From an uncultured Coriobacteriaceae bacterium (GTDB taxonomy: Bacteria > Actinomycetota > Coriobacteriia > Coriobacteriales > Coriobacteriaceae), in assembly GCA_944319885.1 (NCBI GenBank), contig CALUFC010000001.1:124001-188000 (forward strand): a stretch of 64,000 bases of DNA, in the 5' to 3' direction. A model generated the notes under the pieces. The model was not told where the DNA came from, made no database searches, and saw nothing but the letters and a program-made list of their open reading frames with translations. A program made the translations under genes and the position numbers. Shown piece after piece: positions 9,572 through 48,753 of this stretch (position 1 is the stretch's first letter; each line of letters opens with the position of its first letter).

Positions 9572-9600
9572 TTGAAGCTTGCATAGATGGAGCCTAGCAT
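9572..9600 (+). promoter_or_regulatory. probable promoter of adhesin 1
   Basis: TTGAAG (-35, 9572-9577) and TAGCAT (-10, 9595-9600) are separated by 17 bases. Transcription would begin near 9607, just before the inverted repeat at 9609. Confidence 0.45.
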
Positions 9601-9608
9601 GACTAAGA

Positions 9609-9630
9609 CTATCGCTATTCCGGGCGATAG
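9609..9630. promoter_or_regulatory. inverted repeat CTATCGC-N8-GCGATAG before adhesin 1
   Basis: The 7-bp arms (9609-9615 and 9624-9630) are perfect. The sequence TATCGCT..TTCC..GCGATAGCT.TGCGCA is shared with the repeat before adhesin 2 (37631-37660). It overlaps the predicted transcription start, as an operator would, or forms a hairpin at the 5' end of the transcript. Confidence 0.6.
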
Positions 9631-9684
9631 CTATGCGCAAAACGTAGGTAAGTTGTCGCGCGCATGAGTGTGAGGAGTTGCGTC

Positions 9685-12600
9685 ATGGCGTTCTGGAAAA
9701 AGAAAACCCTCGCGGGGGGGGGCTCTCGTAGAGTAGTGCCCTGGCTTGCTGCAGCTGCGGTAACGGTGGCTGCGGTGGTGGCAACCGTTCCGCTAGCGTT
9801 TGGTGCGGTAACAGGGGTCACCTCAGTTGATCCAGACACGTCGAACAACTGGAGCTCCATTGCGGCGAGCTCAAATAGTACCGAGAATGTTGGTCGCATT
9901 TGGACCGACAAGAGTGTGTACAACGCGGATCATTCGCTTGATGGCGCGCTGAGCGGAAAGAGCATCTCTAAGGGAGATTCTGACTTCCTGGTTGGTCTGT
10001 CTGCGATGTCCTCGACGTCTAACGTGAAGTCTACGGTCACGCGCACCGATCCCCTTGACATCGTTCTCATCATCGACCGCTCTAGCTCTATGCACCAGGA
10101 CATTGAGCAGGCTGGGTCCTATACGGAGATTAATGCCAGCGACGTAGAAGAGGCGGACGGCTATCTTGAGTGGCATGATGGCATCTGGGGTTTTGGAGAA
10201 GGTAACGAAGCCCATCAGACGTCCGGTGTTAATGAATACTATGCCTTGGTTGATGGCGAGTATGTTCGAATTAACGAGGAAACCGAAACGCATAACGGTG
10301 ACGGTTGGTATGAGGGGACAAGCTACGAAGAGCATATCCGTTGGACATTGAACGGTCAGACTGTTACGCCAGAGGATACTCAGTTCTACGAGTATCAGCA
10401 AGGCGGGACAATCAGTCGCATGGAGGCTCTGAAGACCGCTGCCAACAACTTCATTGATTCCGCCGCTGGACTCCCCAACTCTGGGCAGGTGCGCATCGGT
10501 ATCGTCAGTTTCGCGGGTAGCAGCGATCGTGATTGGAATTCAGCGAGCATCGATCGTGAACTCACCGATCTCTCCGGTAACAATGCGGAGTCGTTGAAGG
10601 CAACCGTCAATAGCATCAATCCCCCGAGCAGCGGGGCGGGCACCTATCCAGCTAACGCTTTCGAAGACGCACAGAGCATGTTCAACGGGTCCGCTCAAGG
10701 TACCCAGAAAGTCGTTGTATTCTTTACCGACGGCGGTCCTGGTGGCACTACGGGCTCCGTGCTCGACAACGGCGTTGCGAATGATACGATTCAGGCCTCA
10801 CATGCCGTCAAGGTGTCTGGGGCAACCGTCTATTCGGTTGGCGTGCTTGACGGCGCCGATCCCTCGGCGGACATCAGCAACGTAAGCAATAACTCAAACT
10901 CGACTCTTCGCGTGAATGCTTACATGCACGCCGTCTCGAGCAACTACCCCTCTGCGACCGGATTTACGAGCAATGCAATCGGCTATCGTGCACCCAACAG
11001 TGACTACTACAAAGCGGCATCAAACTCCGAAGAACTCAACGACATTTTTAGCAACATCTTCGATGAGATCGAGCAGAACCAGGGTTCCGGTTCGCCTATC
11101 GAGGAAAATGTTCCCGGCGGGGGCGCTGAGAACACCCCTGGAAATCTTGTCTTCGAGGATCAGCTCGGCGACTACATGCAGGTTACTGGCGACAAGATGA
11201 CGCTTGTATATGCTGATGGTCTGCATGAGAGCACGCGCACGACAACTCAAGGTAACGTTACGACCTATTACTTCGAAGGTCAGTTCGCTGGTAACGGCGT
11301 TTACGGCGCGGCAAACTATAGCGACATCACCGTGACGGTCACGCACAGCAGTGATCCCGCTACGGGCGATAAGGTCACGGCCACCATCCCGGCGAGCCTT
11401 ATCCCCATGCGTTCCTACAATATTGATATGGACAGCGAGACTCCGACCATGACCATCACGGACGCCTATCCCATGCGTCTGTATTATGGCGTGAGCTTGA
11501 AGCGGGAAGCAAAGGACGCACTGAATAGCGGTACCGGCGACGTGTATGAGGCCATCGTTGAGAGCCAGGCTTCTGAAAGCGGCACCGTGGACTTCTACAC
11601 CAACGCGTTTATCGAAGCCGCTTCCAACGGTCTTACGACGGCGACCTTCACGCCCAACGAGGCCAATAAGTTCTACTACTATACGCAGGACACCACGCTT
11701 TACTTAGACGAGGATTGCACCCAGGTTGCCACATCGCAGAACAGCCAGCGTGTGGATACGTTCTATTACTCTGAGCCGTACTGGACACGCAACCAAGATG
11801 GAACTGCGGTTGAACATAACGAGGGCATCGCTATCAGCCGCTTGGATACCGACTTTGGAAGTGTTGAGACCAACTGGCGGGGCGAGCTGTACATCCCTGC
11901 TCACACCGCACGACAGGATCGTCCGAACACCCTGAACGTGACCAAGAACCCGAACGAAACGGGAACTGCTTCAGAGGTGCTGGCGCCTGCTTGGAACAAC
12001 ACCAATGAGTCTGTTACGCAGCATCTCGGCAATAACGGCAAGATGAGTTATCCGATGCCGGGTTCTATCGAGATCAAGAAGACGGTCGACTGGACCAACG
12101 CATCCAGCCAAACTCAGCAGGATAAGAATTCCTTCACCTTCGATATCTCGCTCACGGATGTGGACAACAACCCCATCAGCGGAACGTACAACTACTACGT
12201 CGATAACGCTGAGACCGCTTCTGGTCAGGTGATCTTCACCAACGGTCACGCAAGCATCAAGGTTAACGGCGGCACGACGGTGCGCATCGACGGCCTGACC
12301 TCTGGTGCTAAGTTCACCGTGACCGAGCAAGGGGTGGGTGAGAACGGCTTTACCGTTACATCCGACTCGACTTCGCAGGCCGAGGGTGAGAACGTTAGTA
12401 CCACCGACGGCATTGTGAGCGGCACCATTGTTGCGGGCTCGCAGGTCTCGCTTTCCTTTGACAACCGGTATCACGCTGAGGATATTGACCTGAATGCAAC
12501 GGCCACCCTGCAGGTGAAGAAGAACCTGACCAATCGCGAGTGGCGCGACACCGATGAGTTCACATTTGTGATTGACGGCCTCGGCAACACGGCTGCAGGC

Positions 12601-15600
12601 AATATTGCTACACCTGAGCCCGCCGAGACCACAATCACAATTGATGACGAAACGACCGACTACACCAAGGCGTTCGGTGACATTACCTTTACGGCGCCCG
12701 GTGTGTATCGCTACAGCGTCGTTGAGGATAACGACACCAACCCCATCGCGGGCATCGACTACTCCGACGCCATCTACCGCGTGGTGGTGACGGTGATTGA
12801 TGACGGTGCAGGCCAGCTTGAGATTTCCGGCGTGAAGGTCGAGCAGACCCAGAACGACGAGGGCAGCATGGGTGCCCAGGACGAGCCTATTGCCGTCGAG
12901 GGCACCACGATGACCTTCACCAACAACTACGACGCCGGCGTTGGCACCACTAATATCAACGCGGTAAAGAACTATGTCGACACCACGGGTGGCAACCCGA
13001 TTGACCACAACAAGTTCCAGTTCCAGATTGAGGCGCTCGGTGGTTACGAGACCGATGGCGGCTCCTCGAGCAGCTACACGGTTGACGCTGCCGATGTCCC
13101 CATGCCCGAGGGTTCCACTGGCACTACCAAGCAGATGGGCAACACCGGCTCTCAGGTCAACTTTGGCACCATCACCTATGACGGCGACGCCGTGGGCAAG
13201 ACCTTCGAGTACAAGGTGACCGAGCTTGGCGGCAATGAGCAGGGTATGGACTATGACAAGACCGAGCACATTGTCCAGGTGAAGGTCGAGGAGGTCACCG
13301 ACGACACCGGTACGCATATCGTGGCGACGGTGCTTGGCGACTATGCTGATCCGAGCAACCTGTCCTTCTCCAACACCTACAAGCCGACCGAGGTGACGTT
13401 GAGCGGCGACACCGCCATTCACGGCACCAAGACGCTGACTGGTCGCGATCTCAACGACGGCGAGAAGTTCTACTTCACGCTGACGCAGACCGGTGGTCCG
13501 GCGACGCTCGATCCCAACGACGACGCCGACGCATATGATCAGGTTTTGGCGCAGTCCGAGATTGTTTCTGTCGATAGCTTGACGGACGGGTCCGCGGACT
13601 TCTCATTCGGTGATCTGAGCTTCACTCAGGTGGGTACTTACACCTTCACGGTTGACGAGACCGCGGAGAACGGTTCCGACACCACCGACGGCAACGGCCT
13701 CACCTACAGCAAGAACGTGGCGACGGTGACCGTCGAGGTGAAGGACAACGGCGAGGGAGCGCTCGTGCCCACGGTGTCCTACGTCAACTCCACCGGTAGC
13801 ACCGCGACCGACAAGGCCGTGTTCACCAACGTGTACGAGTCCTCGATGGACTACGGTGCGGATGGTGCCGGTGGCATCACCGTCACTAAGCAGCTCAATG
13901 GTCGTCCCATGGCAGCCGACGAGTTTACCTTCACCATCACGGGGCAGGATGCGGCGGCCGATATGACCACCGACCTCGATCAGGAGTTCAAGAACACGGG
14001 CGCCGCTGAGGGCGAAACCATAAGCATGGAGAAGCTTCAGAGTCTGAGCTTTGATCAGGATGACGCGGGCAAGACGTACACCTTCATCGTGGATGAGGTC
14101 GAAGACGACCTGACCAAGGTTACCTACGATCAGTCGCAGTACGAAGTTGAGATTGCCGTGTACGACGATGGCCTTGGCCACATGCATACCGTGACCAACG
14201 TCACGAAGATCAAGGATGCCCAGGGCGACACGGTGAACGAGCCTGTTGTGACAGATGCTGACTCCAGTGCAGATGAGTATTCTGTCCCGACATTTGGCTT
14301 TGTGAACACGTACACTCCTGACCAGGTGGTTGTTGGTGAGGATGCGAAGAACGCCATCCAGGTGACCAAGACCGTTACTGGCGCTCCGTCGCCCGACGGT
14401 GTGAGCTATGGCTTCACGCTCACGCTTACCAGCAATAATGCTGACGGCATTGCGAGCGGCATGGACGTCAACGATGAGGGTGCGCTTCAGGCACACATCC
14501 AGACGTCCGGCGTAATCGAGGCCAACGGCTCACAGGCTGTATCCTTCGGCGACATCAGCTTCTCCAAACCGGGTACCTACACGTTCAATGTGACCGAGGA
14601 CGCCCTTGCCGCTGATGATGGTTGGAGCTATGACACTGTCAACAGCGGCCCCAAGACCGTGACGGTTGTTGTTCGCAACACCAACGATCAGGGTCAGTTC
14701 GATGGCAAGCTCTACATTGATAGTGTGACTGGCAACCCGGCTGAGGTGACTAACAGCTACAAGCCCGGTGAGGTCGTTGTGGGCGGTGATGGCGCCGAAC
14801 AACAGATCACGGTGCAGAAGACCGTGACCGGTGCCGATTCCAACGCCACCTTCACGTTCCAGATTGAACCGGTCATCGATAATGACCATACGAGCGAGTG
14901 GTGGAGCGACCGCGTGAGCGGCACTGCAGGCTTCACGCCCGAGACGACTATCTCCAGTGTGACCCAGAAGCAGGCCAAGACTGCCACTTTCGGCGGCATC
15001 ATCTTCAATGCCGAGGGCAAGTATCAGTTCAAGATTACCGAGCGGGGCGCGGCCGACTTCAACGCTGGCGACACCCGCAATGGCTGGACCTACGACGAGC
15101 ACGCGTCCTACGCGACCGTGACCGTTACCGATACGGACTACGATGGTTACCTTGAGGCATCGGTGTCGTACAACAACGATGACGCCACCACCGAGGCCGA
15201 CCAGGCAGTGGACAATGCCGCTGCGTTCACCAACGCGTATACGACGACCCCGGCCGAGCTGACCAAGGATGCGGAGTCTGGCATCGGTGTTCAGAAGCAC
15301 GTTGAGGGCGCGCCGAACTCGACGAACTTCGCCTTCACCGCGATCTTCAACGCCGATGCGAGCGCCGAGCAGGCTGCGGATGCCAGCTTGACCGCAGGCG
15401 TGGCCTCGAGCATCGAGGGTCTGACCGGCGGCAAGCTCTCCGTGACCATCAGCGATGACTTCAAGGCAGACGATACGAAGGCCGCCGACTTCGGCACCAT
15501 CAAACTCACCAAGCCTGGCGTGTACGTGTTCGACGTGACGGAGGACAACGCCAAGAGCGAGGCTCCCAACGGCTGGACCTACGATACGGCTACCCATCAG

Positions 15601-18600
15601 ATCACGGTAACGGTCACCGACAACGGCCAGGGCAAGCTCGAGGCGTCCGTTGAGAACAATGACCCGCTGTTCACCAACAGCTATCAGGCCGGCAGCATCA
15701 CGCTGGACGGCGAAGACCAGCTCAAGGTGACCAAGGAGGTCACGGGTGCGCCTGCGCTCTCCGACTTCGACTTCACGCTGAAGCTCACCGATGGCGACCC
15801 GAGCGGCGTGACCGGTATCGGCGATGATGGCATCACCAAGTCCACCTCCGGCCTGACCGGCAAGGAGGGCGATGAGGCGAAGCAGACTGTCTCGTTCGGC
15901 AGTCTGACTTTCACCAAGGCCGGTACCTACGAGTTCCAGGTTGTCGAGAACACCACGACAGCCGCCGATGGCTGGACCTATGCCTCCGGCGAGGACAACG
16001 CCAAGACCATCACGGTCACGGTGACCGACGACCAGTTCGGCGGTCAGCTCGAGGCGACCACCGAGGTTGATGGCACGGATACCAACAACCCGACCTTCAC
16101 CAACAGCTACAAGGCCAGCTCTATCACCACTGGTGAGGACGGTCTCGACGAGCTCCAGGTGACCAAGGCTGTGACCGGTGCGCCTGCCACTGAGGAGTTC
16201 ACCTTCGAGCTGACTCCGGCCAAGGACTATGGCGACAAGGTCGAGGGCCTCAAGGACGGCAAGCTCACGGTTAGCACGACCGATCTGAAGGGTCAGGAGG
16301 ATTCCCGCACCCTCACCTTCGGCGATCTGACCTTCAACGCGGAGGGCACCTACACCTTCGACGTCAAGGAGACCAACGCCGATCCCGCCGAGGGCAGCGG
16401 CTGGACCTATGACAACGATGCCGCCAAGCAGATCACCGTGGTGGTGACCGACGAGAACCACGACGGCAAGCTCGACGCGACCACCGTGGTCGATGGCCAG
16501 GACACCAACAACCCGACCTTCACGAACGCCTATGTGCCCGCCGAGATCACGACCGACGCGGATGCCGGCACAGCCATCCAGGTGACGAAGAAGGTCACCG
16601 GCCGTGACGCCACCGAGGCGTACGACTTCTCGCTGACCCTCAAGGAGGGCCAGAACGCCGATGCTGTGTTCAAGGGTAAGGGTGAGGACAAGACCCCGTT
16701 CGACGGCATGGAACTCACCACGTCCAAGGACATCAAGGCCGGCAAGACCGAGACCAAGACCTTCGGCGACATCACGTTCACCGAGGCCGGTGACTACACC
16801 TTCGTGATCGACGAGACCACGACGACCACCGCCGGCGGCTGGACCTACGATGGCTCCACGCACGAGGTGACGGTCCATGTCACGGATGATGGCAAGGGTG
16901 CGCTGCACATCGAGAGCATCGATGGCAACGATCCGACGTTCGAGAACGTCTACAAGCTCCAGCCGGCCAAGTTCCGTGCCGTGCGCTTCATGCTCCAGGG
17001 CAACAAGGTGCTCGACGGCCGCACTTGGGAGACCGGCGACGAGTTCACCTTCACGCTGACCCCGGGCCGCGGCGACAATGTCGATGGCTCGCAGATGAGC
17101 GAGGATGAGGTTACGGCCACCATGCCCGCCTCGACTTCCGACACCATCCGCCCGGCGGACGGTGACGGCTCCAAGGTGACCGACAACTCGGCCCAGTTCA
17201 CCTTCACGGACGAGCGCTTCCCGGGCGAGGACATCGTGGGCAACGAGGACGACGTCTTCACCTACACCAAGCCGGGCACGTACCGCTATCTCATCCGTGA
17301 GACCAACCCGAACGTATCCAACCCTGGCTCGGGCATTCTGGGCGTGAGCTATGACCAGACGGTCTACCGCCTGACGGTCAAGGTCACCGACAACGGTGAT
17401 GGCACGATGAGCGCTGAGGGCTCGTACACGAAGCGCAACGCCGACGGTACCTGGACCGACCTGACCGGCAGCAACGAGGTCACGTTCACCAACAAGTACT
17501 CGTCCGACGAGGTCGACATCACCTTCAACGCCTTCAAGGTGCTCCAGAACCGCGACCAGAACATGAAAGACGGCGAGTTCACGTTCCATATGGAATTCGC
17601 CGGCTGGGCAGCCAACGACGCGAACGCCGACCCGAACGACGATTCCGTGTGGACGATGGATGACACCACGAACGCGCCCGAGGCCGCCGCTGATACCGGC
17701 AACATCATCCGCGGCGACGTGACCTTCGACGGCATGACCTTCACGAAGGACAACGTGGGCTACACCTACCGTTACAAGATCACCGAGAACCCGGGCGACG
17801 TGCCGGGCGTGACCTACGATACGAGCGTCAAGTACGTGACCGCCAAGGTGACGAGCGTTTCGACGCCCGACGATCCGCAGGATCCGGACGGTGCCTACAC
17901 CGAGCACGTCCGCGTGGAGACGAGCGGTGAAGCTGAGTGGAACGAGCAGGCCGGAACTGCCCCCACCGCCGGCGCCATCTTCACCAACACCTATCAGGCT
18001 GGCGCCGCCACGGGAGTACCTGCGGACTTCTCGTTCACCAAGCAGTTCGTCGGGCACGAGTGGACGGACAACTACAGCTTCGAGTTCACGCTTGCCGCGC
18101 AGGACAGCAAGCTCGCTGACGGCACGCCTGTTGCCGCCGCGGACGTTCCCATGCCCGCAAGCGCCACGAAGACCGTGAACACGCCCGGCCAGGAGGGCGG
18201 CGACACCGCGACCTTCGACTTCGGTAGCATCAGCTACGACAAGGCCGGTATCTACAACTACACCGTGACCGAGAAGAACGCTGGACAGACCATCGACGGC
18301 ATCACGTATGACGCGCAGCCGGCTCAGGTGACCGTCACCGTGACCGAGGGCAAGGATGAATCCGGCGCGCTGACCGGTCAGCTGGTGGCTACCGCTACCG
18401 TGACCAACGGCGACTTCGTTAACGAGTACCACGCCTCCGCCAGCTACAAGGCGAGCGGCGTGGGCGGCCTGGACATCACCAAGCAGCTCAACAACCACGA
18501 GATGGCTGACGATCAGTTCAGCTTCACCATCGAGGCCGCTGACGAGGCTGCCGCTCAGAAGCTCGGCATTCAGGACGGTCTGACCACCACGGTCACGAGC

Positions 18601-20682
18601 GCCGCCGCGGCTGCCAACACGCCGCAGTCCGTGAAGTCCAACCCGTTTGACACCATCGTGTTCAACGAGAAGGACGACGGCGTCACCTACACCTACACCA
18701 TCACCGAGAACACGGACGGTGTCGACAGCCACTACAAGACGGACGACACTACCTACACCGTCTCGATCACCCCGACGGACAACGGTGACGGCACCATGAC
18801 GGTGAAGACCGTTGTCAACGGCGCCGAGACCACCAACAAGCGCGCCACCGTCGCGTTTGTGAACAGCTACCAGGCCGACCCGACCACGGTGGGCGCCGAG
18901 GGTGCCGCCACGATTACGGGCACCAAGACCCTCAAGAACGACACCCTGACCAACGGCCAGTTCACGTTCCAGGTGAAGAGCGGCGACGTGGTGGTTGCCG
19001 AGGGCACGAACGACGCCAACGGGAAGATCACCTTCGGTGACATCACCTATAACACTGAGAACCTTGCCGCAGCTGCGACGGTCGACGGTTCCGACAAGGT
19101 CGGCAAGGCAACTGTACAGACCACCGCCGCGGGCACCGAGTACACGTTCACCTATACGGTGAGCGAGGTCGCGCCCGCGACCGGCTCCGGCGTGACGGCT
19201 GGCACCGCCGCCCAGAACGTCACCATTACGGTTACGGATGACGGCAACGGCACGCTCACGCCCGTCGTGACCTACGGCGACGGTGACCCGCTCGCCTTCG
19301 AGAACGTCTACGGCGGCGACGCCGAGTTCGCGCTCGACATCGCGGGCACCAAGAAGATCGTGGGTGCGCAGGACAATCTCAATGTGCCGCAGCTCACGGC
19401 CGATGCGTACCAGTTCACCATCACCGGCAACCCTGCCGCGGACGGTACGCCCGCCCCGATGCCCGCCGTCACCACGGTCGGCAACGATGCCAGCGGCAAC
19501 GTGACGTTTGGGGACATCGTCTACACGATGGAGAACACTTTCGGCTCCGCGCCGGCGACGGCTGAGGCCGCCGCTGACGCCGCGACCGACGAGGGCATCG
19601 AAACCTACACGGCCGGCCGCACTCAGGTGTTCACCTACACCATCAGCGAGTCCGGCACGGTTGCCGGCGTCACCAACGAGCAGGGCACCAAGACCGTCCA
19701 GGTCACGGTGACCGACCTTGGCGGCGGCAAGATCAAGGCCGAGGTGACCTCCGACAAGACCGCCGAGGGCGCGGACTTCGGCTTCACCAACGTGTACGAT
19801 GTGAAGCCCGAGGACTCCAGCCTCACCGGCAACGGCGGGTTCACCATCACCAAGGACTTCTCGTCCACCAACACCGACCGTACGCTGGTCGAGGGTGAGT
19901 ACGAGTTCCAGCTCAAGAGCGGCGATGACGTGGTTGCCACCGCAAGCAACGATGCAGCGGGCAACGTGAGCTTCGGTTCCATCACGTTCACCAAGCCCGG
20001 AACGTACAACTACACGCTCTCCGAGGTCAACGGCGGCAAGCCGGGCGTTACCTACGACCAGACTGTCTACAACGTGACGGCCAAGGTAGAGGATAAGGGT
20101 GACGGTACACTTACGGTGACGTGGGAGATGCCGCAGGCCGAGAACAACGGCGTGACGTTCAGCAACACGTACACCGCCGCGGATGCCAACATCACGCTCA
20201 AGGCCGCTAAGGTGCTCAATGGCCGTGCGCTTGCCGATGGCGAGTTCACCTTCGAGCTGCGCGAGAACGGAACGGTTCTCGACACGGCGACGAACGATGC
20301 GACGGGTCAGGTTACGTTCGATGCCATCACCTACTCTGAGCCCGGTGAGCACGATTACGAGATCGTGGAGGTTGCTGGCAACGAGGCCAACATGACCTAC
20401 GACACCACCGTGCATACCGTGCATGTGAGCGTGACGGACAATACCGAGACCGGCTCGCTGGCCGTTGCGTGGAACTATGGTGAGACGGGTGAGCCGGTGT
20501 TCACCAACACCTACACCGAGCCCGTTACGCCTTCTGAGCCCTCTGGTCCGAGCGAGCCTGCCAAGCCGGCCGATAACTTGCCGGTGACGGGCGACTACAC
20601 GCTGCCTATCGTGGGCGGTATCGTGGTTGCTGGTGCTGCGCTCATCCTGGGTGGCCGTGCTATCAGGAAGCGTGGTGAGTAA
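9685..20682 (+). CDS. giant vWA / isopeptide-repeat surface adhesin with LPVTG anchor (adhesin 1)
   Basis: This 3665-residue protein has a signal peptide with a Lys-rich start and Ala/Val core. A von Willebrand A domain follows with MIDAS D131-R-S-S-S, and a segment containing YYALVDGEYV is inserted after the MIDAS. About 19 tandem domains follow, each ending in F(T/V/S/E)N.Y and having a GTYTF.V.E strand. These fit Spy0128-like pilin domains with Lys-Asn isopeptide bonds. The C-terminus is NLPVTGD, a hydrophobic helix and RKRGE. It is probably a wall-anchored fibrillar adhesin with a vWA head. The start at 9685 is preferred over 9664 because GAGGAG lies at 9672-9677. A G9 tract falls in codons 10-13. 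Confidence 0.93.
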   Translation: MAFWKKKTLAGGGSRRVVPWLAAAAVTVAAVVATVPLAFGAVTGVTSVDPDTSNNWSSIAASSNSTENVGRIWTDKSVYNADHSLDGALSGKSISKGDSDFLVGLSAMSSTSNVKSTVTRTDPLDIVLIIDRSSSMHQDIEQAGSYTEINASDVEEADGYLEWHDGIWGFGEGNEAHQTSGVNEYYALVDGEYVRINEETETHNGDGWYEGTSYEEHIRWTLNGQTVTPEDTQFYEYQQGGTISRMEALKTAANNFIDSAAGLPNSGQVRIGIVSFAGSSDRDWNSASIDRELTDLSGNNAESLKATVNSINPPSSGAGTYPANAFEDAQSMFNGSAQGTQKVVVFFTDGGPGGTTGSVLDNGVANDTIQASHAVKVSGATVYSVGVLDGADPSADISNVSNNSNSTLRVNAYMHAVSSNYPSATGFTSNAIGYRAPNSDYYKAASNSEELNDIFSNIFDEIEQNQGSGSPIEENVPGGGAENTPGNLVFEDQLGDYMQVTGDKMTLVYADGLHESTRTTTQGNVTTYYFEGQFAGNGVYGAANYSDITVTVTHSSDPATGDKVTATIPASLIPMRSYNIDMDSETPTMTITDAYPMRLYYGVSLKREAKDALNSGTGDVYEAIVESQASESGTVDFYTNAFIEAASNGLTTATFTPNEANKFYYYTQDTTLYLDEDCTQVATSQNSQRVDTFYYSEPYWTRNQDGTAVEHNEGIAISRLDTDFGSVETNWRGELYIPAHTARQDRPNTLNVTKNPNETGTASEVLAPAWNNTNESVTQHLGNNGKMSYPMPGSIEIKKTVDWTNASSQTQQDKNSFTFDISLTDVDNNPISGTYNYYVDNAETASGQVIFTNGHASIKVNGGTTVRIDGLTSGAKFTVTEQGVGENGFTVTSDSTSQAEGENVSTTDGIVSGTIVAGSQVSLSFDNRYHAEDIDLNATATLQVKKNLTNREWRDTDEFTFVIDGLGNTAAGNIATPEPAETTITIDDETTDYTKAFGDITFTAPGVYRYSVVEDNDTNPIAGIDYSDAIYRVVVTVIDDGAGQLEISGVKVEQTQNDEGSMGAQDEPIAVEGTTMTFTNNYDAGVGTTNINAVKNYVDTTGGNPIDHNKFQFQIEALGGYETDGGSSSSYTVDAADVPMPEGSTGTTKQMGNTGSQVNFGTITYDGDAVGKTFEYKVTELGGNEQGMDYDKTEHIVQVKVEEVTDDTGTHIVATVLGDYADPSNLSFSNTYKPTEVTLSGDTAIHGTKTLTGRDLNDGEKFYFTLTQTGGPATLDPNDDADAYDQVLAQSEIVSVDSLTDGSADFSFGDLSFTQVGTYTFTVDETAENGSDTTDGNGLTYSKNVATVTVEVKDNGEGALVPTVSYVNSTGSTATDKAVFTNVYESSMDYGADGAGGITVTKQLNGRPMAADEFTFTITGQDAAADMTTDLDQEFKNTGAAEGETISMEKLQSLSFDQDDAGKTYTFIVDEVEDDLTKVTYDQSQYEVEIAVYDDGLGHMHTVTNVTKIKDAQGDTVNEPVVTDADSSADEYSVPTFGFVNTYTPDQVVVGEDAKNAIQVTKTVTGAPSPDGVSYGFTLTLTSNNADGIASGMDVNDEGALQAHIQTSGVIEANGSQAVSFGDISFSKPGTYTFNVTEDALAADDGWSYDTVNSGPKTVTVVVRNTNDQGQFDGKLYIDSVTGNPAEVTNSYKPGEVVVGGDGAEQQITVQKTVTGADSNATFTFQIEPVIDNDHTSEWWSDRVSGTAGFTPETTISSVTQKQAKTATFGGIIFNAEGKYQFKITERGAADFNAGDTRNGWTYDEHASYATVTVTDTDYDGYLEASVSYNNDDATTEADQAVDNAAAFTNAYTTTPAELTKDAESGIGVQKHVEGAPNSTNFAFTAIFNADASAEQAADASLTAGVASSIEGLTGGKLSVTISDDFKADDTKAADFGTIKLTKPGVYVFDVTEDNAKSEAPNGWTYDTATHQITVTVTDNGQGKLEASVENNDPLFTNSYQAGSITLDGEDQLKVTKEVTGAPALSDFDFTLKLTDGDPSGVTGIGDDGITKSTSGLTGKEGDEAKQTVSFGSLTFTKAGTYEFQVVENTTTAADGWTYASGEDNAKTITVTVTDDQFGGQLEATTEVDGTDTNNPTFTNSYKASSITTGEDGLDELQVTKAVTGAPATEEFTFELTPAKDYGDKVEGLKDGKLTVSTTDLKGQEDSRTLTFGDLTFNAEGTYTFDVKETNADPAEGSGWTYDNDAAKQITVVVTDENHDGKLDATTVVDGQDTNNPTFTNAYVPAEITTDADAGTAIQVTKKVTGRDATEAYDFSLTLKEGQNADAVFKGKGEDKTPFDGMELTTSKDIKAGKTETKTFGDITFTEAGDYTFVIDETTTTTAGGWTYDGSTHEVTVHVTDDGKGALHIESIDGNDPTFENVYKLQPAKFRAVRFMLQGNKVLDGRTWETGDEFTFTLTPGRGDNVDGSQMSEDEVTATMPASTSDTIRPADGDGSKVTDNSAQFTFTDERFPGEDIVGNEDDVFTYTKPGTYRYLIRETNPNVSNPGSGILGVSYDQTVYRLTVKVTDNGDGTMSAEGSYTKRNADGTWTDLTGSNEVTFTNKYSSDEVDITFNAFKVLQNRDQNMKDGEFTFHMEFAGWAANDANADPNDDSVWTMDDTTNAPEAAADTGNIIRGDVTFDGMTFTKDNVGYTYRYKITENPGDVPGVTYDTSVKYVTAKVTSVSTPDDPQDPDGAYTEHVRVETSGEAEWNEQAGTAPTAGAIFTNTYQAGAATGVPADFSFTKQFVGHEWTDNYSFEFTLAAQDSKLADGTPVAAADVPMPASATKTVNTPGQEGGDTATFDFGSISYDKAGIYNYTVTEKNAGQTIDGITYDAQPAQVTVTVTEGKDESGALTGQLVATATVTNGDFVNEYHASASYKASGVGGLDITKQLNNHEMADDQFSFTIEAADEAAAQKLGIQDGLTTTVTSAAAAANTPQSVKSNPFDTIVFNEKDDGVTYTYTITENTDGVDSHYKTDDTTYTVSITPTDNGDGTMTVKTVVNGAETTNKRATVAFVNSYQADPTTVGAEGAATITGTKTLKNDTLTNGQFTFQVKSGDVVVAEGTNDANGKITFGDITYNTENLAAAATVDGSDKVGKATVQTTAAGTEYTFTYTVSEVAPATGSGVTAGTAAQNVTITVTDDGNGTLTPVVTYGDGDPLAFENVYGGDAEFALDIAGTKKIVGAQDNLNVPQLTADAYQFTITGNPAADGTPAPMPAVTTVGNDASGNVTFGDIVYTMENTFGSAPATAEAAADAATDEGIETYTAGRTQVFTYTISESGTVAGVTNEQGTKTVQVTVTDLGGGKIKAEVTSDKTAEGADFGFTNVYDVKPEDSSLTGNGGFTITKDFSSTNTDRTLVEGEYEFQLKSGDDVVATASNDAAGNVSFGSITFTKPGTYNYTLSEVNGGKPGVTYDQTVYNVTAKVEDKGDGTLTVTWEMPQAENNGVTFSNTYTAADANITLKAAKVLNGRALADGEFTFELRENGTVLDTATNDATGQVTFDAITYSEPGEHDYEIVEVAGNEANMTYDTTVHTVHVSVTDNTETGSLAVAWNYGETGEPVFTNTYTEPVTPSEPSGPSEPAKPADNLPVTGDYTLPIVGGIVVAGAALILGGRAIRKRGE
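9714..9722 (+). repeat. G9 homopolymer tract in adhesin 1 signal-peptide codons
   Basis: Nine consecutive G residues span codons 10-13, before the hydrophobic core. In the present length the reading frame is open. Losing one G leads to GCT CTC GTA GAG TAG and gaining one leads to CTC TCG TAG, so either change truncates the protein at once. This is the form of a slipped-strand phase-variation tract. Confidence 0.8.
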
Positions 20683-20683
20683 C

Positions 20684-21037
20684 ATGCCAAGCAAGGGCAC
20701 CGGTTCTTCCCTCAAGGGCGTGAGCACCCGCATCAACGGCCGTCATGCGTTCATCCACGAGCGCGTGCTGGAGCTCATTGCTCGCGAGACCGAATTGCGC
20801 GGCGCCGTCACGTTCCGCAAGGGCGATCTTGCCCAGCGGCTGGGGTGCTGTGAGCGCTCGCTCGATCGCGCGCTCACGCGCCTGCGCCGCGATGGCTATG
20901 TGATCTCCACACCCATGTTTGGAGAGACGGGTGCCCAGCTTGGTAACGAGTACAAGGCCACGGCGGACGGCATCGCACTCGCCGGCGGATTCCGGAAGGA
21001 TAAGAACGCCGGGTACCGTACGGGAGTCCGCGCGTAG
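20684..21037 (+). CDS. small winged-helix-like DNA-binding protein coupled to adhesin 1
   Basis: This 117-residue basic protein starts one base after the adhesin stop (TAACATG), so translation is probably coupled; GGTGAG lies just before the stop. Residues about 38-80 (VTFRKGDLAQRLGCCERS, then LDRALTRLRRDGYVIS) have the spacing of a helix-turn-helix followed by a wing, as in MarR- or crp-type folds. The family has no name I recognise. Its paralogue at 48319 sits in the same position after adhesin 2, and the two share a GSSLKG..TRINGRHAF start. A regulatory role on the adhesin is inferred from fold and linkage only. Confidence 0.75.
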   Translation: MPSKGTGSSLKGVSTRINGRHAFIHERVLELIARETELRGAVTFRKGDLAQRLGCCERSLDRALTRLRRDGYVISTPMFGETGAQLGNEYKATADGIALAGGFRKDKNAGYRTGVRA

Positions 21038-21065: not shown

Positions 21066-21101
21066 AGAAGCGCCGCTGAATTTTCAGCGGCGCTTCTTTG
21101 T
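21066..21101 (+). terminator. rho-independent terminator after adhesin 1 module
   Basis: A perfect 14-bp stem (21066-21079 with 21084-21097) with a 4-base loop is followed by TTTG. It ends the adhesin plus HTH transcript. Confidence 0.85.
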
Positions 21102-31992: not shown

Positions 31993-32040
31993 AGCGGCTC
32001 AACGCGCAGGTAAGCGGGTTTTGTGCGGCAAGGAAGGGCT

Positions 32041-37422: not shown

Positions 37423-37592
37423 GGGGCGGGGGCTCGCCGCAGGGCTGTAGCATGTTGCAGGCGCATATCCACCGAGACATTACGCGGTAAGCTAAATCTT
37501 TTTTTGAGATAGAAAAACACTACTTCCTACCTTATAGAACAAAAGTCTAAACCCCTCCCACAGAAGTACCCCGTATCGCAAAAAAAAGAGAT

Positions 37593-37608
37593 GTAAACTA
37601 TAGTTTAC
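37593..37608. promoter_or_regulatory. 16-bp perfect palindrome GTAAACTATAGTTTAC
   Basis: A loop-free 16-bp palindrome lies 114 bases before adhesin 2 and overlaps the predicted -35 element. The GTAAAC half-site also occurs twice before adhesin 1 (9491, 9509). It looks like a dimeric regulator site. Confidence 0.6.
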
Positions 37609-37632
37609 GTTACCTAGACTTAACCCTGTATA
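37604..37632 (+). promoter_or_regulatory. probable promoter of adhesin 2
   Basis: TTTACG (-35, 37604-37609) and TGTATA (-10, 37627-37632) are 17 bases apart. The -35 overlaps the 16-bp palindrome and the -10 overlaps the TATCGC inverted repeat, so both candidate operators sit on the promoter. The rest of the 284-base spacer after purF has A/T runs and no gene. Confidence 0.5.
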
Positions 37633-37651
37633 TCGCTCGTTCCAAGCGATA
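37631..37651. promoter_or_regulatory. inverted repeat TATCGCT-N7-AGCGATA before adhesin 2
   Basis: Arms at 37631-37637 and 37645-37651 are perfect. The core and flanks (TTCC in the loop, GCT.TGCGC after) match the repeat before adhesin 1. A related TATCGC/GCGATA pair lies before the LPTTG protein at 6255-6271. Confidence 0.6.
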
Positions 37652-37706
37652 GCTGTGCGCATTTTGGGTTGTCTTGTGCGCAGGGGAGTTAAGGATAGGT
37701 GTTCGT

Positions 37707-40700
37707 ATGCCGCAACTGAAGTTCAATCATCGTAAACGGCCGGGAGACGGTGCCAACAAGCCGGTGCGCAAGGCGCTCTGGCACCGCATTGCTGCGGCGG
37801 CAGGCGTTGTCGCCATAGCGGCAGCGGGAATCGGGGCTATCGCCATGACGGCGCAGGCCGATCCGCACCCGGTTCAGAAGGATACCGTTGCCGACAATTC
37901 GACGCTCGGCAACTGGAGCGGCGCGGTGGGCATCGAAGACACCACCGAGAACGTCGGTCGCATCTGGACGGACAAGACCGTGCAGAATGAGGACGTTACG
38001 CTCTCGGGTGATGTCGGCCAATCGGTCAATATTGAAAAAGGCAGCTCCGACTTCCTCGTGGGGCTCTCCGCTCTCTCCTCCATGTCGAACACCATGACGA
38101 CGTCCACCACTCCCCTGGACATCGTGCTCGTGCTCGACATGTCCGGCTCCATGTCCGGTGAGCTGAGCAGCGAGCAGCAGTTCGTGTACAACGAGGTGGG
38201 TGCTCGAAACGTTCAAGGTTCTGATGTGGAGAGCCACCGTGGCTTTGGAAGGACATATTACACGCAAGTAGACCCCGGCGATTACTACGTTCTGGTTGAC
38301 GGTGAGTATGTGCCCGTCCTTGAGCATACGCACACGGAGAGCTACCAGAGCCGCTTTAATGGCATGCAGGATTTTGATATCCACGACTATTGGTATCTTG
38401 AAGATGGCACTCAAGTAGACCCGAGCACCACGCAGTTCTACACGCGTCGTTCCCAGACGGTAACAACGACGAAGATTGACGCGCTGAAGGAAGCCGTCAA
38501 TGAGTTCATCGAAACCACCGATCAGGCGAACGCGTCCTTGCCTGCAGATGGCAAGCACGAGGTTTCAATCGTGAAGTTCGCAAGCGACAGCACGGATCGG
38601 GTTGGTAATAACACCTACGACGATTATCGATATGACCCGTCGACCCTGAACTACAGCCAGGTCGTAACCGACTTCACCTCGGATGCGACCGCGCTTGAAA
38701 GCTACGTCAACAATCTCGAGCCTGCTGGTGCGACGCGTGCCGACTTAGGCATGGAGCAGGCTCAACGCGTTATCGACGGCGACCGTAGCTACAATCTTGA
38801 AGGAGCCCGCGATAACTCCAAGAAGGTTGTCATCTTCTTTACTGACGGTCAACCCACGAGTTCGGACAGGTGGGACGCAGGCGTAGCGAATGCCGCCATT
38901 CAAACTACCTACGAGATGAAGAACGACCGGAATGACCCGGTCACCGTCTATTCCATTGGCGTGTTCGAGGATGCCAATCCGTCGAATACCACGGATGACA
39001 GCTTCAACTGCTACATGCACGCCGTGTCGAGCAACTATCCCAATGCAACCGGCTATCGGCACTACCAAGGCTGGTGGGATTCGGGCAATATGGGTGACCG
39101 TACGCCTGGGTCCGACTATTACAAGGCGGCCACAAGCTCTGACGAGCTGAGCCAGATCTTCCAGGGCATCTCTGAAGACATCGGCTCCGGCACCGGTGCG
39201 CCTACTCAAACCGAGGGCGAGAACACCGAGACCACGTCGGGCTACATCACCATCACCGACCAGCTCGGTGATTACATGAAGTTCGACGGCATGAAGAACG
39301 TCGTTTTCGCGGGGCAGAAATTCAACCAGGTGGGCGAACCGGCTCCGGACACTGATCCCGACTATAGTGGTTGGACTCGCTACACCTTCGCAGGCGAAGC
39401 GAACAACGACATCTATCCCGAAGGCAACCTCGACCAGCTCATCATTCGCGTGAAGGAGGGTGGCGACCTCAAGACGGGCGATACCGTCCAGGTTCAGATT
39501 CCCGCGAGCCTCATCCCCACACGCTATTTCGACGTGGATGCGACGGCGGGCACCATGTCCGTCACGGACGCCTACCCCATCCGCATCTTCTATGGCGTGA
39601 GTTTGAAGGGCGGCGTGGCCGATAGCGTCGCGGCGGGCGTTCCCATGGGTGGCCTCACGCAGACGCAGTACGATGAGCTCGCGACGTATGTCAGGAGCAG
39701 CCAGTACACCAATGAGGACGGCACCGCGTACGCGAGCTTCCTCTCGAATGCGTGGACCGGCGGTGCGAACGGCAACACCACCTCGAGCTTCGAGCCGTCG
39801 AGCGGCAACGAGTTCTATTACTTTACGAAGCCCACGACCCTCTACTTTGACGAGGCTTGCGAGCGTCCGGTTACGGATCGTAGCCAGATCCGGGACGGAC
39901 AAACCTACTACTACAAGAACACCTTCTGGCAGTTCACAGACGAGAACGCAGATACAGACGGCACGCCGTATGCAGCCGAAGAGACGTTCACGCCCTTCGC
40001 GCTCACTGCTGCGCAGGCGCGCCAGCTCGCAACGGGCACAGACGGTGATGGCAACGTGTGCATCCCCGCTGGCACGCGTCACACGGCGATGATCAGCGAG
40101 CTTGTGGAGAACAAGGCCGACGGCGCCAACAAGACCTCCACGGCAACATCTGTCATCAACCCGAATTGGGCGGGCAGCGGCGAGGACGAGACCATCGATG
40201 CCGCGCTGGGCAACAACGGCCGCCTGGGTATCGAGCTGCCCGGCACGCTTTCCGTGACGAAGAACATCGAAGTCCCGACGGGCGTGGATGCTGCGCAGTT
40301 CGCGAACACCGAGTTCCCGTTCCAGATCACGATGGCCGACGCCGCAAACTACACCTTCAAGGCGCAGGTTAAGAACGCCGATGGAACCATCGCGAACCCT
40401 GCTTCGGGTGAGGGTTACTTCGATCTTCGGTTTGATGCTGAGGGCAAGTCCACAACCGTGAACCTCAAGCCCGACCAGACCCTTACGATCTACGGCTTGG
40501 GTGATGGCTGGACCTATAGCGTGGCCGAGACCGGCACGATGCCCGCAGGCTTCGCACAGACCGAGCCTGCCGATGGTGCTCCTGCAACGGGCACCATCGA
40601 TCAGGCGACGCCCGCCGTGGCCAACTTCACGAACACCTATAGCTTCAATGATGACGTTACCATTAACGGCAAGACCGACCTCTCCGGCACGAAGACGCTG

Positions 40701-43700
40701 ACGCCGCGCGCGTGGCAGGACGGCGATCGCTTCGACTTTGAGCTTATGGTCGCAGCTGGTTCGACGTATGCCGATGGCGCTCCGGTGCCGACCGAGAACC
40801 AGCCCATGCCGACGGATGGCGATAAGCAGGCTAACGGCAACGTGCGCATCTCCCTTACGAACGAGCAGGCGAAGGGTGCTGCTTCCGGCACGGCGGTGAA
40901 CTTCAACTTCGGCGACATCACGTACACCGCGCCCGGCACCTATAACTACATCATCCGCGAGGTTGACTACACGAGCGGGCAGGATGGGTACGTTGCAGGC
41001 GTGACGTACGACCTCACGCGCTACTACGTGCAGGTCGTTGTGACCGATAACGGCAATGGCACGCTTGCCGCGGACGCTCAAATGTATACGACGCATTATG
41101 AGAACGGCGCCCTTGTTCCCAACTTCAATGATGATGTTACGCTTGCGACGTTTGAGAACACGTGGTCTGCGACCGATGCGACGCTGCCCGTGAGCGGCGC
41201 GAAGACCTACAGCGATAACACGACACCGGGTGAAGACCAGGTGCCGACCAACACCTTCTTCTTCCGCATCACGGCTCAGGGCAACGCTCCACTGCCGCAG
41301 TTGCAACAAGGCGATCCCATCGCCCAGGGCGACGACTACATGGTCGTGACCGCGATGCCTGCTGGCCGCTTCCAGTTCGGCGCCGCAACGTTCACTCCTG
41401 GCATGGTGGGCAACACCTATACCTACACCATCGAGGAGGTCGTCAAGCAGGGTGACAACTACGCGCCCGTGAGCGAGGCTATTCAGCCCAACTACGACGG
41501 CGCGTACGTGCAGGACGGCATGACCTACGATGCCACCAAGTACACGCTGACGGTGACGGTGCAGGCGACGGCCGATGGCGCGCTCGAGGCGGTGCCGGAG
41601 TATAGCAACGGCACGGATACGGTCGCGGAGCCGACGTTTACCAACAGCTACGATCCGGCCGACGCGACGCTTACGGGCGACGCCGCCATCCACGGCACCA
41701 AGACGATTACTGGCCGCGACATGACGGGTGACGAGAGCTTCACCTTCACGCTCTCTGGCGCGGATCCCGCGACCACGACGGCCATGACCGATGGCACCAT
41801 CACGTTCGATGGCAAGAGCGACGCAACGTACACCCAGGATGTGTCCGGTGCTGCCGAGGACACCGCCGCGGGCTTCAACTTCGGTGACATGGTCATCAAC
41901 AAAGATGGCGTGTACACGTTCTATATGAGCGAGACCGCGTATGTGGACGGCGACAACACGTATACCGGCTCGCAGCTCGATAACCCGATCAACGGCATCT
42001 CGTTCGACCGTCATGTGTGCACGGTCACGGTAACGGTGACGGACGAGGGCGGTCAGCTTGCCGGCAAGGTGGAGTACAGCACCGCGGACGGTGGCTCGGC
42101 CTTTACGAACACCTATACCGCGAACGAGACTTATGGCACGGACGTTGACCTTACGGTGGGCAAGACGCTGACCGGTCGCAACATGAAGCAGGGTGAGTTC
42201 ACCTTCGAGATTTCCGCGACGGGCGACAACGCCGAGGCCTCCCAGGACAAGCTTGATGCGGCCAAGATTGCCGCGACCTTCAAGAACCCGCAGGATGCTT
42301 CTAGCGGCGTCGAATCCACCTGGACGATCTTCGAGAACCTCGCGTTCAACCAGGAGGATGCGGGCAAGACCTTTACCTACCAGGTGAAGGAGCGGATCCC
42401 CGCCGAGGACGAGCGCAACGGCGTGACCTACGATGCGAGCGTCTACGAGGTTGCCATCCAGGTGGTGGATGATGCCGACGGCACCATGCACACCGTGACG
42501 ACGGTGAAGAAGGGCGACGAAGAGATTGGTACCTTCGATAGCTCGACGGGTACTGTTGCGCCCGAGCTTTCCTTCGAGAACGGCTATCACGGGGCGCCCG
42601 CGACGGTCGACCCGAAGACCGATACGCGCCTGCAATTCAGCAAGGTTGTGACCGGCCGCGACTGGCTCGAGCGCGACAGCTTCAGGTTCAGCATCGAGAA
42701 GGTGTCGTTCAACGGCGCAACTGATGGGGACGCGCTTGACGCTATGCCCAACCCCGAGCAGGATACGGCAACGCTTGGTGGTGCGGCGCAAGCTGATACC
42801 AAGGCTGACGAGCGTGTGCCTTTCGACTTCGGCCAGATGACCTTCACCAGGGCGGGCACCTATGTGTACCGCGTCGATGAGACCAACACCGGCAACGACG
42901 GCAAGGGCCTCACCTACGATGAGCACACCGTAGACATCGCGATTGTGATTCGTGACAACAACGCCGGCAACCTTGTGGTGGATGCCATCTACCCGCTGAA
43001 CGGTGCAAGCACGACCTTCACGAACACGTATGCCTCCGAGGTCAATTACCCCGACACCGCGGCTTCGCTGAGCGTCCAGAAGACGCTCAAGGGCCACGCG
43101 ATGGCGGATGATCAGTTCGAGTTCACGCTCACGCCCGCCGATGAGGCCTCCGCGAAGAAGGTTGGCCTGTGGCAGGACGATGCGCCACAGTCCGAGACCG
43201 GCTCGTGGGGTGCTGCCGAGGATGGCGCAGCCGTGACGACGCCGATCGATTGGAACCTGACGTTCACCCAGGCAGATAGCGGCAACACCTACACCTACAC
43301 GTTTGCCGAGGTCGAGCCCGAGGTCGTGCCGGCAGGCTACAGCTACGACGGCACCACCTACACCGTGGCGATCACGCCTACGGACAACCAGGACGGCACT
43401 ATGTCGGTGACGACGGTCGTGACCACGACGCCTGCTGAGGGCGAGGCGACCGAGACGACGTATACCTACAGCGCGACCGACGCGAAGGACGACATTGTTC
43501 TCCCGTTCGTGAACACCTACGGAACGGACGCGACGACGGACGACGTCGCGGCGGATGTTGACGCCACCAAGACGCTCACCGGACGCAACATGGCTGAGGA
43601 CGAGTTCAGCTTCGAGATCGTGACGCGCGAGGCGGACGGCTTCGACGGCGAGTTCGCGCCCGCGACTGTGGCGACCGGCACGAACGCCGCTGCCGATAAC

Positions 43701-46700
43701 GGCGTGGCGGGCGACGTGACCTTTACGGGCGCGGACGGCGCTATGACCTACACGATCGCCAAGCTTGACCAGGCAGTGGCCGACGGCTACGCCACGAAGA
43801 GCGTGGGCGACAATGGCAACGCCACCTGGACGCTCAACTACACCACGCGCGAGCTTACTGGCAGCCTGCCGACCAACGTGACGGCTGAAGACCCGACGAG
43901 CTTCGACTTCACCGTGACGGTCGTCGACAACGGCGACGGCACGCTCGAGGCGACGGTCAATGCGCCCCAGGGCGGCATCGCGTTCAAGAACACCTACAAG
44001 CCGGACAACGTGACGGTGGGTGCGGACGGCGACGCGCAGATCACCGTACAGAAGACCTTCACCGGTCGCGCGAACAACGCGTGGCTCGATAGCGACAGTT
44101 TCGTGTTCACCATTGCGGCCGAGACCGACGGCGCGCCGATGCCCAGCCCTGCCACCGTTGAGGTGACGAATAAGGACAATGCGGTTGATGGCGTGGCAGG
44201 TGCCTATACCGACATCTTCGGTGACATCACCTACACGAAGGCCGACCTCGACGGCGCTATGTCTAAGGACTTCGTCTACACCATTACCGAGACGAACCCG
44301 GCGAGTAACGGCAACGGCATCACCAAGGATACGCATACCGCGAAGGCGACCGTGACCGTGACCGATAACGGCAAGGGACAGCTCAAGGCCAAGGTCACGT
44401 ACGACAACCTCGACGCGACGACCGAGGCTGACCAGGGCGTGAAGGACGCCGCCGCGTTCACCAACACCTACGAGGCCAGCGAGGGCGGTACGCTCGACGG
44501 CTCGACGTACCTCAAGGCCAGCAAGACCCTCACCGGTCGCGACTGGCAGGAGGGCGAGCAGGTCGACATCGTGCTGCGCGGCGCTAATGCCACACCGCGT
44601 CCCGAGGATGCCGTCGATACCGAGAACGGCTGGGAGTACCGCGTCGCGGTGACCCAGAATGGCGAGATCGCCTTCCCGAATATCGCCTACAGTGCCGATG
44701 ACCTCGATGGAGCGGCGTCCAAGACGTATACCTATGCCATTGTGGAGGATGCCGACAGTCATATCATCAAGGGCGGCGAGCAGGCCGATAATGACCAGAT
44801 TCACCAGGGTATGGATTACTCGCAGGCGCGCTATATCGTCCGTGTAACGGTGAAGGACGGCAACGATGGCACGCTTGATGTGAGCGCAACCATGGTTCAG
44901 ATGCGCAACGATGACGGCAACCTCGTCAACGGCGAGGAGGGCACGGTCGTTGATACAAACGTGGCAGCCTTCACCAACGCGTTCAGCGCCGATGAGGTGG
45001 CGCTCCCGCTGACCGTCGAGAAGCAGTACAGCGACCCGACGAACGGCCATCCCATCACGAGCAACATGTTTACTTTCCGTGTGCACCCGGTCGGCGATGA
45101 GGCGGCGACAGCGCCGATGGATGACAACCGCGTTCAGGGCACCGGTGCCGACCGCTACATCGAAGCGGGCGTACGCGTGGCCGAGGGTGAGACCCCTGAT
45201 GCGAGCTTCGGCACGGCCAGATTCCAGTTCGACGGGCAGAACCACACCTTCTACTATGAGGTGACGGAGAACATGCCCGCCGAAGCCAACGAGGGCAACG
45301 GCTACAAGGTCGATGGCGTGACGTACGACCCGACGGTCTTCACCGTGAAGGTCGAGGTCACCTATGATGACCATGAGAATGCGTCGAGCGCTGTGATGAC
45401 CATCTACGAGGGTAGCTACGACGTGGTCTCCACGGCCGACCCGGACGAGCTCGATGCCATGAAGGTCGACGGCATCACCTTCAACAACAGCTACGGCACG
45501 GGCGGCACGACGGTCGACACCGGCGATGCCCAGACCACGGCGAACTTCACCAAGGTCATCGACGGGCGCGATTGGCTCGACACCGATAGCTTCGAGTTCA
45601 CCATCACGCCGAACGGTGATGCTCCGGCCTTTGAAGGCGCGGATCCCGACACGAAGGCGAAGACCGTTGAGGTGACGGCAAACAACCCAGAGGTCAACAA
45701 GATCACGGGAGCGGACGGCACCGAGATGGACGTCAACGGGCGTTCCTTCAACTTCGGTATCGTGACGTTCACGGACGAAGACATGCAGGGCGCGCAGATG
45801 GTGGAAGGCAAGCTTACCAAGACCTTCACCTACACGGTGACCGAGGTCGAGCCCGCCGATGAGGACAAGATCCCCGGCATGACCTACGACACCGTCCACG
45901 AGGCGACGCTCACCATCACCGTGGTCGATAACGGCGACGGCACCATGACCGCCACGCCACAGGTTTCGAATGACGTGTTCTTGAACTCCTACAACACGAG
46001 CGTTGATGGCACTGCTTTCGGTGGCTTCGCGATCGAGAAGACGCTCACCGGCCATGACATGGCAGCCGGCCAGTTCGAGTTCACCGTGAGGCCCGGTGAC
46101 GATGCGTCAGCCGAGAAACTCGGCATCACGGACGAGAACGGCACCGTTTCGTCGCCTGCCGCAAATGACGGCCAGACCGTGACGGTTGCCACTTTCGGCC
46201 TTGCCAATAACATGAAGTTCACCCAGGCTGACGACGGCAAGACGTTCACGTACGAGGTTTCCGAGACCAAGAAGGGTGAGGAAGGCTACACGAACGATGA
46301 GTCGGTCTATACGGTCAGCATCGCCGTTGAGGACGAACCCGCTACCGCCACGCTCACGGTAACTACCACGGTGACCGACGAGACCGGTGCCCAGGTGGGC
46401 GAGCCCGTCGTGGTGACGAACGCCAGCACCGACCGCGCGACCGCGACGGTGAGCTTCAACAACAGCTACACGGCGACCACCGATCCCGATGAGGGCGGCA
46501 CCGCTGCGACGGTGAGCACCACTAAGACGCTTGACGGACGTCCGCTCGAGGACGGCGAGTTCAACTTCAAGGTGTCCTATGCCAAGGGCGATAATGCAAC
46601 CGTCGTGGACAACGTGACCAACGCTGCTGACGGTACCGTCAACTTCGGCACGTTCAACTACACGACCGAAACACTCGCAGAGATGGTTCAGGCCGGTTAC

Positions 46701-48317: not shown

Positions 48318-48318
48318 C

Positions 48319-48713: not shown

Positions 48714-48753
48714 CATCAGGGGTGTCACGCAGGATGGCACCCCTGATGCGTTT
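48714..48753 (+). terminator. terminator hairpin after adhesin 2 module
   Basis: An 11-bp perfect stem (48714-48724 with 48738-48748) is extended by three inner pairs, with a 7-base loop. TTTG follows after CG. The rest of the spacer to purM (48754-48922) shows nothing except a possible -10 TATCAT near 48888. Confidence 0.65.

Follow-up and report, generated by a model that had tools for sequence, protein, structure and literature searches.

We describe here two giant adhesin genes of a Coriobacteriaceae-like bacterium (genome of about 2.0 Mb), each followed after a single base by a gene for a small protein with a predicted winged-helix fold, an arrangement that recurs beside phase-variable adhesins of relatives and is accompanied by a near-invariant dyad in the leaders of both adhesins. 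We tentatively propose that the small protein is an operon-encoded autoregulator that is made only when its adhesin is ON. The features of the 64,000-nucleotide stretch that was analysed (G000:C1:124001-188000, hereafter the window) are collected in Table 1.

Table 1. Features of the two adhesin/small-gene pairs (positions in the window)
Feature	Position	Strand	Description
-10-like box, adhesin 1	9595..9600	+	TAGCAT (CCTAGAATG in relatives); position conserved in aligned leaders
Leader dyad 1	9610..9639	+	TATCGC-N8-GCGATA, then GCTATGCGCA; candidate operator or RNA hairpin
Second stem, leader 1	9633..9665	+	ATGCGC (9633-9638) with GCGCAT (9660-9665); A-U/G-C/G-U alternatives in relatives
Adhesin 1	9685..20682	+	3,665 aa, ATG start; signal peptide, vWA, 18 FctA/Spy0128-type isopeptide domains, LPVTG sorting signal
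G9 tract	9714..9722	+	Codons 10-13 of adhesin 1; in frame (ON); only G/C run of at least 8 in the 64-kb window
Junction, pair 1	20674..20686	+	GGTGAG-TAA-C-ATG; stop/start TAA-C-ATG at 20680-20686
Small winged-helix protein 1	20684..21037	+	117 aa
Terminator-like hairpin closing pair 1	21066..21097	+	14-bp stem, then TTTG; -28 kcal/mol, z -6.0
Palindrome	37593..37608	+	GTAAACTATAGTTTAC, perfect 16-bp; immediately precedes the -10-like box of adhesin 2
-10-like box, adhesin 2	37615..37620	+	TAGACT; aligned leaders
Leader dyad 2	37631..37661	+	TATCGC-N9-GCGATA, then GCTGTGCGCA; aligned leaders
Second stem, leader 2	37656..37682	+	TGCGCA (37656-37661) with TGCGCA (37677-37682); seen directly; fold
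Adhesin 2	37707..48317	+	3,536 aa; signal peptide, vWA, 16 FctA-type domains, LVETSD non-canonical sorting signal
Junction, pair 2	48309..48321	+	GGTGAG-TAG-C-ATG; stop/start TAG-C-ATG at 48315-48321
Small winged-helix protein 2	48319..48684	+	121 aa
Hairpin after pair 2	48714..48748	+	Equally strong, z -4.0; weak T tail, no clear T run

Two putative adhesin operons and their predicted winged-helix partners

The preliminary description of this DNA had reported two adhesins of more than 3500 residues, each followed after exactly one base by a paralogue of about 120 residues, and the reading frames bear this out (Table 1). Judging from their FctA domains (PF12892, matched in 18 stretches of adhesin 1 and 16 of adhesin 2), their vWA domain (VWA_2) and their sorting signals, both adhesins are of the FctA/Spy0128 sortase-anchored type. 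They are ordinary members of the FctA/Spy0128-repeat vWA adhesins, what is unusual being the 16-18 repeats and the operon partner. Alternative starts are possible for both, at an upstream in-frame ATG (9664) for adhesin 1 and an upstream TTG (37674) for adhesin 2. Between the two operons lies an ORF (window 32023-33375) that contains a partial sortase domain (G000:C1:156824-157057, E 1e-8), and two further sortases are found on contig C2. The small proteins, which share 62% identity over 103 aa, are the sole copies in this genome. A terminator had been said to close each pair. After pair 1, where the hairpin runs into TTTG, the intrinsic terminator is solid; after pair 2, where the strong hairpin lacks a clear T run, it is probable. 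A simple terminator scan listed neither of these pair-end hairpins. The gene layout suggests that each pair is one transcription unit.

A helix-turn-helix-like core had been proposed for the small protein, and the structural comparison agrees with it. An AlphaFold model built on nine sequences (mean pLDDT 73, moderate confidence) gives a MarR/PadR-like winged helix (H24-39, H46-53, H57-70, E73-79, E85-92) in the order helix, helix, recognition helix, two-strand wing, helix. Its best matches among solved structures are of the MepR-DNA, MarR, PadR and HxlR types, some of them DNA-bound, with Z scores of up to 9.4 (9.2-9.4 for MepR/MarR). Thus the predicted fold, with its recognition helix and beta wing as in MarR, is of a DNA-binding type, and the refuting outcome named beforehand, a fold that cannot bind DNA, did not arise. 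Across 27 relatives the motif RH.F..ER is invariant around the start of the first helix, as is L...G...........G.Q..N.Y from the recognition helix to the wing.

Although the fold is like that of MarR/PadR/HxlR regulators, neither small protein is matched as an equivalog by any curated sequence model, and NCBIfam gives weak winged-helix matches. HTH_Crp_2 (PF13545) scores best in Pfam, at 27.2 bits for protein 2 and 20.9 for protein 1 against a gathering cut-off of 27; compared with the Crp type, the 117-aa protein is without a cNMP domain. The MarR model PF01047 matches protein 2 far below its cut-off (E 0.057) and protein 1 not at all, and a PDB sequence search gave no significant match. A similarity to a replication initiator (phrog_270, 7e-6) was read as a common winged-helix core only, and that identity was rejected. 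Since no homologues were found in the plasmid and phage collections, there is no sign of a mobile-element gene.

Junction, linkage and phase switches in relatives

The gap between the two genes is exactly 1 nt in all nine loci of the same genus, and their junctions follow CGN-GGT-GAG-TAR-N-ATG, with a GTG start once (CGNGGTGAG-TAR-N-ATG/GTG). The junction of G061, a relative outside the genus, is nearly the same and also has a one-base gap. Elsewhere in the family most gaps measure 0-6 nt, with 10-160 nt in remoter members. As such, the tightly conserved spacing of exactly one base that was first described holds for this genus and G061, but is not general. The sequence GGTGAG can pair with the 16S rRNA end by the Shine-Dalgarno rules, so the last codons of the adhesin may double as the ribosome-binding site of the small gene, which would explain the fixed spacing. 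The junction suggests that translation of the small gene is coupled to that of the adhesin by termination and reinitiation.

Among the 67 family genomes we found 37 strong homologues of the small gene, and a profile search detected the gene family in 87 of the 398 class members, among which two more families of the order are represented. An ORF with a sorting signal ends at most 500 nt upstream of 29 of the 37 strong homologues, compared with 30 of 884 control ORFs, namely other ORFs from the same loci; for calling sorting signals we used a rule of our own, and the Fisher p of 3e-31 is only a guide because the homologues share ancestry and the counts are not independent. One further homologue is a tandem second copy following an adhesin/small-gene pair. 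The proposal that the small family would be found next to vWA/isopeptide adhesins is thereby upheld for the strong homologues, which mostly lie directly 3' of a sorting-signal protein, while remoter ones partly precede the adhesin. Of 20 remoter homologues examined that have little or no adhesin upstream, 7 have a sorting-signal protein downstream and 4 a large secreted protein, so that in this branch the small gene comes first. Once these downstream genes were read, the class-wide notion that remote homologues lie away from adhesins was rejected. Homologues near the detection edge often have other neighbours. Taken in general, the small protein is very probably a DNA-binding operon partner of adhesins.

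Several loci depart from the usual arrangement. In G051 (L013/L047, G051:C15:57157-58011) the adhesin is a remnant with an early stop, through decay or assembly collapse, and the leader dyad and the small gene are kept. At L056 (G050:C1:41580) a winged-helix homologue lies directly 3' of a sortase-like gene, with no adhesin there. In L075, L174, L180 and other g3 genomes (same family) there is one remote winged-helix homologue each, about 300 nt after a conserved non-adhesin protein of about 500 aa that ends in GINVCCEPKFERRGFFHR.

A G9 tract is found near the start of adhesin 1 but no G tract in adhesin 2. In G054, whose corresponding small protein shares 94% identity, the orthologous adhesin has a G10 tract with a stop soon after it and would thus be OFF. 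Tracts of G9-G10 are found at the start of 12 of the 38 linked adhesins whose 5' end is present (expected 0.2, p about 1e-18), and about half of them are in frame: they are in frame in the window, G061, G212, G333, G354 and G318, and out of frame in G054, G065 (two), G066, G241 and G064. These lengths come from single draft assemblies, into which sequencing error or repeat collapse may enter. An in-frame homopolymer with ON and OFF length variants among relatives points to a slip-strand phase switch. Poly-G tracts also occur in or just before winged-helix genes of relatives (L131:5390(-), L139:4891, L129:5314(-), L040:13121(-)), and such regulators may be phase-variable directly.

Further linked loci have, immediately upstream, a gene for a serine recombinase, which is separated from the adhesin or small gene by a stretch containing inverted sites with a YAGAC core; in G197 the inverted copies, CGGTCAGAAAGGTAGACTTTTTC and GAAAAAGTCTGCTTTTCCGACCG, are 144 bp apart. 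Hin-type systems use invertible promoters, and by this established analogy the recombinase with its inverted sites would form a putative invertible promoter. We rejected AAAANNYAGACNTTTT, at first considered as a second type of operator, because its copies form inverted pairs in the interval from the serine recombinase gene to the adhesin or the small gene, which makes a recombination site more likely than a binding site for the regulator. At L050, L049, L063, L065, L067, L069, L123 and L133 we noted genes for serine recombinases, several of them accompanied by inverted YAGAC-core sites; they may mark invertible promoters that precede adhesin or winged-helix genes in the Coriobacteriales. With poly-G in some linked loci and a serine invertase in others, the small gene accompanies phase-variable adhesins irrespective of how these are switched.

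The dyad in the adhesin leaders

Both adhesins of the window have in common a near-invariant dyad of 20-21 bp, TATCGC-N8/9-GCGATAGCTNTGCGCA, which lies 9-11 nt downstream of a -10-like box of the CCTAGAATG type and is followed by a second stem and then the start codon. No consensus -35 was found upstream of the -10-like box of adhesin 1. The leader blocks of adhesins 1 and 2 are 81% identical (z 5.5), whereas the similarity of the 100 nt preceding the block, of what follows it and of the first 300 nt of coding sequence is at the level of shuffled sequences. A covariance model (R1) run over the 67 family genomes gave 11 matches, each of them immediately preceding an adhesin that has the small gene; 10 are training sequences or identical to training rows, and the one outside training is G065:C12:75624 (E 0.7). 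In the same genus, two FctA adhesins without the small gene have no leader dyad, no G tract and no GGTGAG end, and two genomes of the genus without such adhesins have neither small gene nor leader. The presence of the dyad at the adhesin promoter or leader only where the small gene is present makes an autoregulator plausible. Other loci whose small protein has the same recognition-helix residues (e.g. G065:C12:60834) are without this exact dyad. Copies of CGATAGCTNTGCGCA with one mismatch elsewhere in the genus genomes (e.g. G000:C8, G057:C78) were dismissed, as they fall within ordinary genes or at the starts of such genes and lack the dyad.

MarR-like proteins bind palindromic sites (PMC6246914), and by analogy a dyad of 20-21 bp near the transcription start would suit a dimer of the MarR type, which pairs through its N- and C-terminal helices. 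The first stem differs between genera by two compensatory changes, the loop of the second stem varies in length among leaders, most leaders fold no better than shuffled sequences, and the leader matches no known RNA family in Rfam; the dyad data fit a DNA operator and an RNA hairpin alike. The promoter region of adhesin 2 has, in addition, the palindrome GTAAACTATAGTTTAC, which is identical in G061:C135, partly conserved in G055/G056 and absent from adhesin 1, and is a possible site for another regulator. Further upstream of adhesin 2, an A8 tract (37580-37587) could modulate its promoter.

Possible modes of action and known systems

The preliminary description had named no described system with this layout, which is incorrect. 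The MarR-like proteins PapX, FocX and SfaX are encoded by the 3'-terminal gene of the E. coli pap, foc and sfa fimbrial operons (PMC6246914), and in P. mirabilis the last gene of the mrp operon codes for MrpJ, which activates its own operon, represses flhD and has homologues in 10 of the 17 fimbrial operons (PMC9820224). The small genes described here are likewise placed 3' of the adhesin, apparently in the same operon, and recur in several operons. By layout and fold they resemble PapX, FocX and SfaX, each a small winged-helix protein from the 3' end of a phase-variable adhesin operon with several paralogues per genome. Those proteins, however, belong to Gram-negative chaperone-usher fimbriae, and PapX, which has a proximal promoter of its own, is a repressor of flhDC, whereas here we find Gram-positive, sortase-anchored single giant adhesins, no flagellin, an apparently overlapping ribosome site and a dedicated dyad at the adhesin. 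MrpJ is similar in that a helix-turn-helix regulator ends many fimbrial operons of one genome, the phase switch is an invertible promoter and auto-activation is reported, but both protein and adhesins are of other types, its regulon includes motility, and slip-strand and serine-invertase switches both occur in our loci. Pil1 of S. gallolyticus is, like adhesin 1, a Gram-positive sortase-dependent adhesin with a repeat-slippage switch and leader structure; its repeats are in a leader peptide, unlike here, where they are in the adhesin's own signal-peptide codons and a regulator gene is added. The layout is of a known kind, while the protein family, the dyad and the Gram-positive setting are new; in our searches of the open literature we found no description of such a system in Coriobacteriia.

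Here we propose that a phase-variable, sortase-anchored adhesin and a dedicated winged-helix DNA-binding regulator share a transcription unit, in which the regulator would be translated by reinitiation from a ribosome site in the adhesin's last codons and hence made when ribosomes finish the adhesin. With the G tract out of frame, translation would stop within a few dozen codons and leave the 11-kb message untranslated, so that little regulator is made; the regulator level would thus report the ON state of the adhesin. A regulator dimer would then act on the 20-21-bp dyad at the transcription start or leader of its own adhesin, most likely by repression, thereby capping the output of a very large protein. 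Repression is favoured because the dyad is located shortly after the -10-like box, either at the presumed start or beyond it. Because both adhesins of the window share the dyad, each regulator might also act on the sibling adhesin. This autoregulatory role may well apply, although we put it forward with reserve. The earlier suggestion that the small protein reports whether the adhesin frame is ON gains from the G9 tract and from relatives that are ON or OFF by its length, but it does not extend to some remoter relatives, where the small gene precedes the adhesin and cannot report its completed translation.

The closest known proteins raise the alternative that the small protein acts in trans, like PapX and MrpJ, on other surface or lifestyle genes (adhesins, capsule, sortases) and not on its own promoter, the leader hairpins being an unrelated mRNA element. 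The 3'-terminal position of papX, focX and sfaX, the repression of flhDC by PapX, the many MrpJ homologues of P. mirabilis and a fold of the same broad class all speak for this. However, flagellin genes were found in none of the nine genus genomes, so that the known target class is absent and a PapX-like repression of motility was rejected for this genus, and the sole shared dyad in the genus sits at the adhesins themselves; we regard action in trans as rather unlikely. Also possible in principle, if a little less probable still, is that the dyad and second stem form an RNA element, such as a 5' stabiliser, a translational control of the 11-kb mRNA or an attenuator, in which case the small protein would bind other DNA, or none that is relevant, and co-occur with the leader by block inheritance. 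The location downstream of the -10-like box, the compensatory changes and the variable second loop are supportive of an RNA, as is the pilus phase variation of S. gallolyticus, which uses leader translation and a stem-loop (PMC3894217). Against it stand the nearly invariant sequence of the first stem, as expected for a protein site, and the folding energies and the lack of an Rfam family noted above; moreover, block inheritance leaves unexplained that the flanks and coding starts of the paralogues have diverged to background while the element was kept. Least probable, and in our view improbable, is a positive autoregulator by which the ON state is locked. Auto-activation of mrp by MrpJ has been reported, and linkage to phase-variable loci would give a bistable ON state, but a dyad at or downstream of the presumed transcription start, instead of upstream of the -35 region, favours repression.

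If the small protein is an autoregulator of the ON state, a broader and more doubtful extension is that a previously undescribed regulator family of the Coriobacteriales reads the ON state independent of the type of switch and coordinates giant adhesins via the shared dyad, for example for display of one at a time. Most descriptions of phase variation present it as a blind on/off switch. If our proposal is true, the cell could sense and act on its own phase state, and would have a means to cap the expression of a very costly protein and to coordinate paralogous adhesins. A small regulator made together with the ON adhesin would then recur with two unrelated types of switch across an order of gut bacteria, which would extend the PapX/MrpJ principle to Gram-positive sortase-anchored adhesins, and the concrete candidate operator makes this idea directly testable in culturable Collinsella/Enorma relatives.
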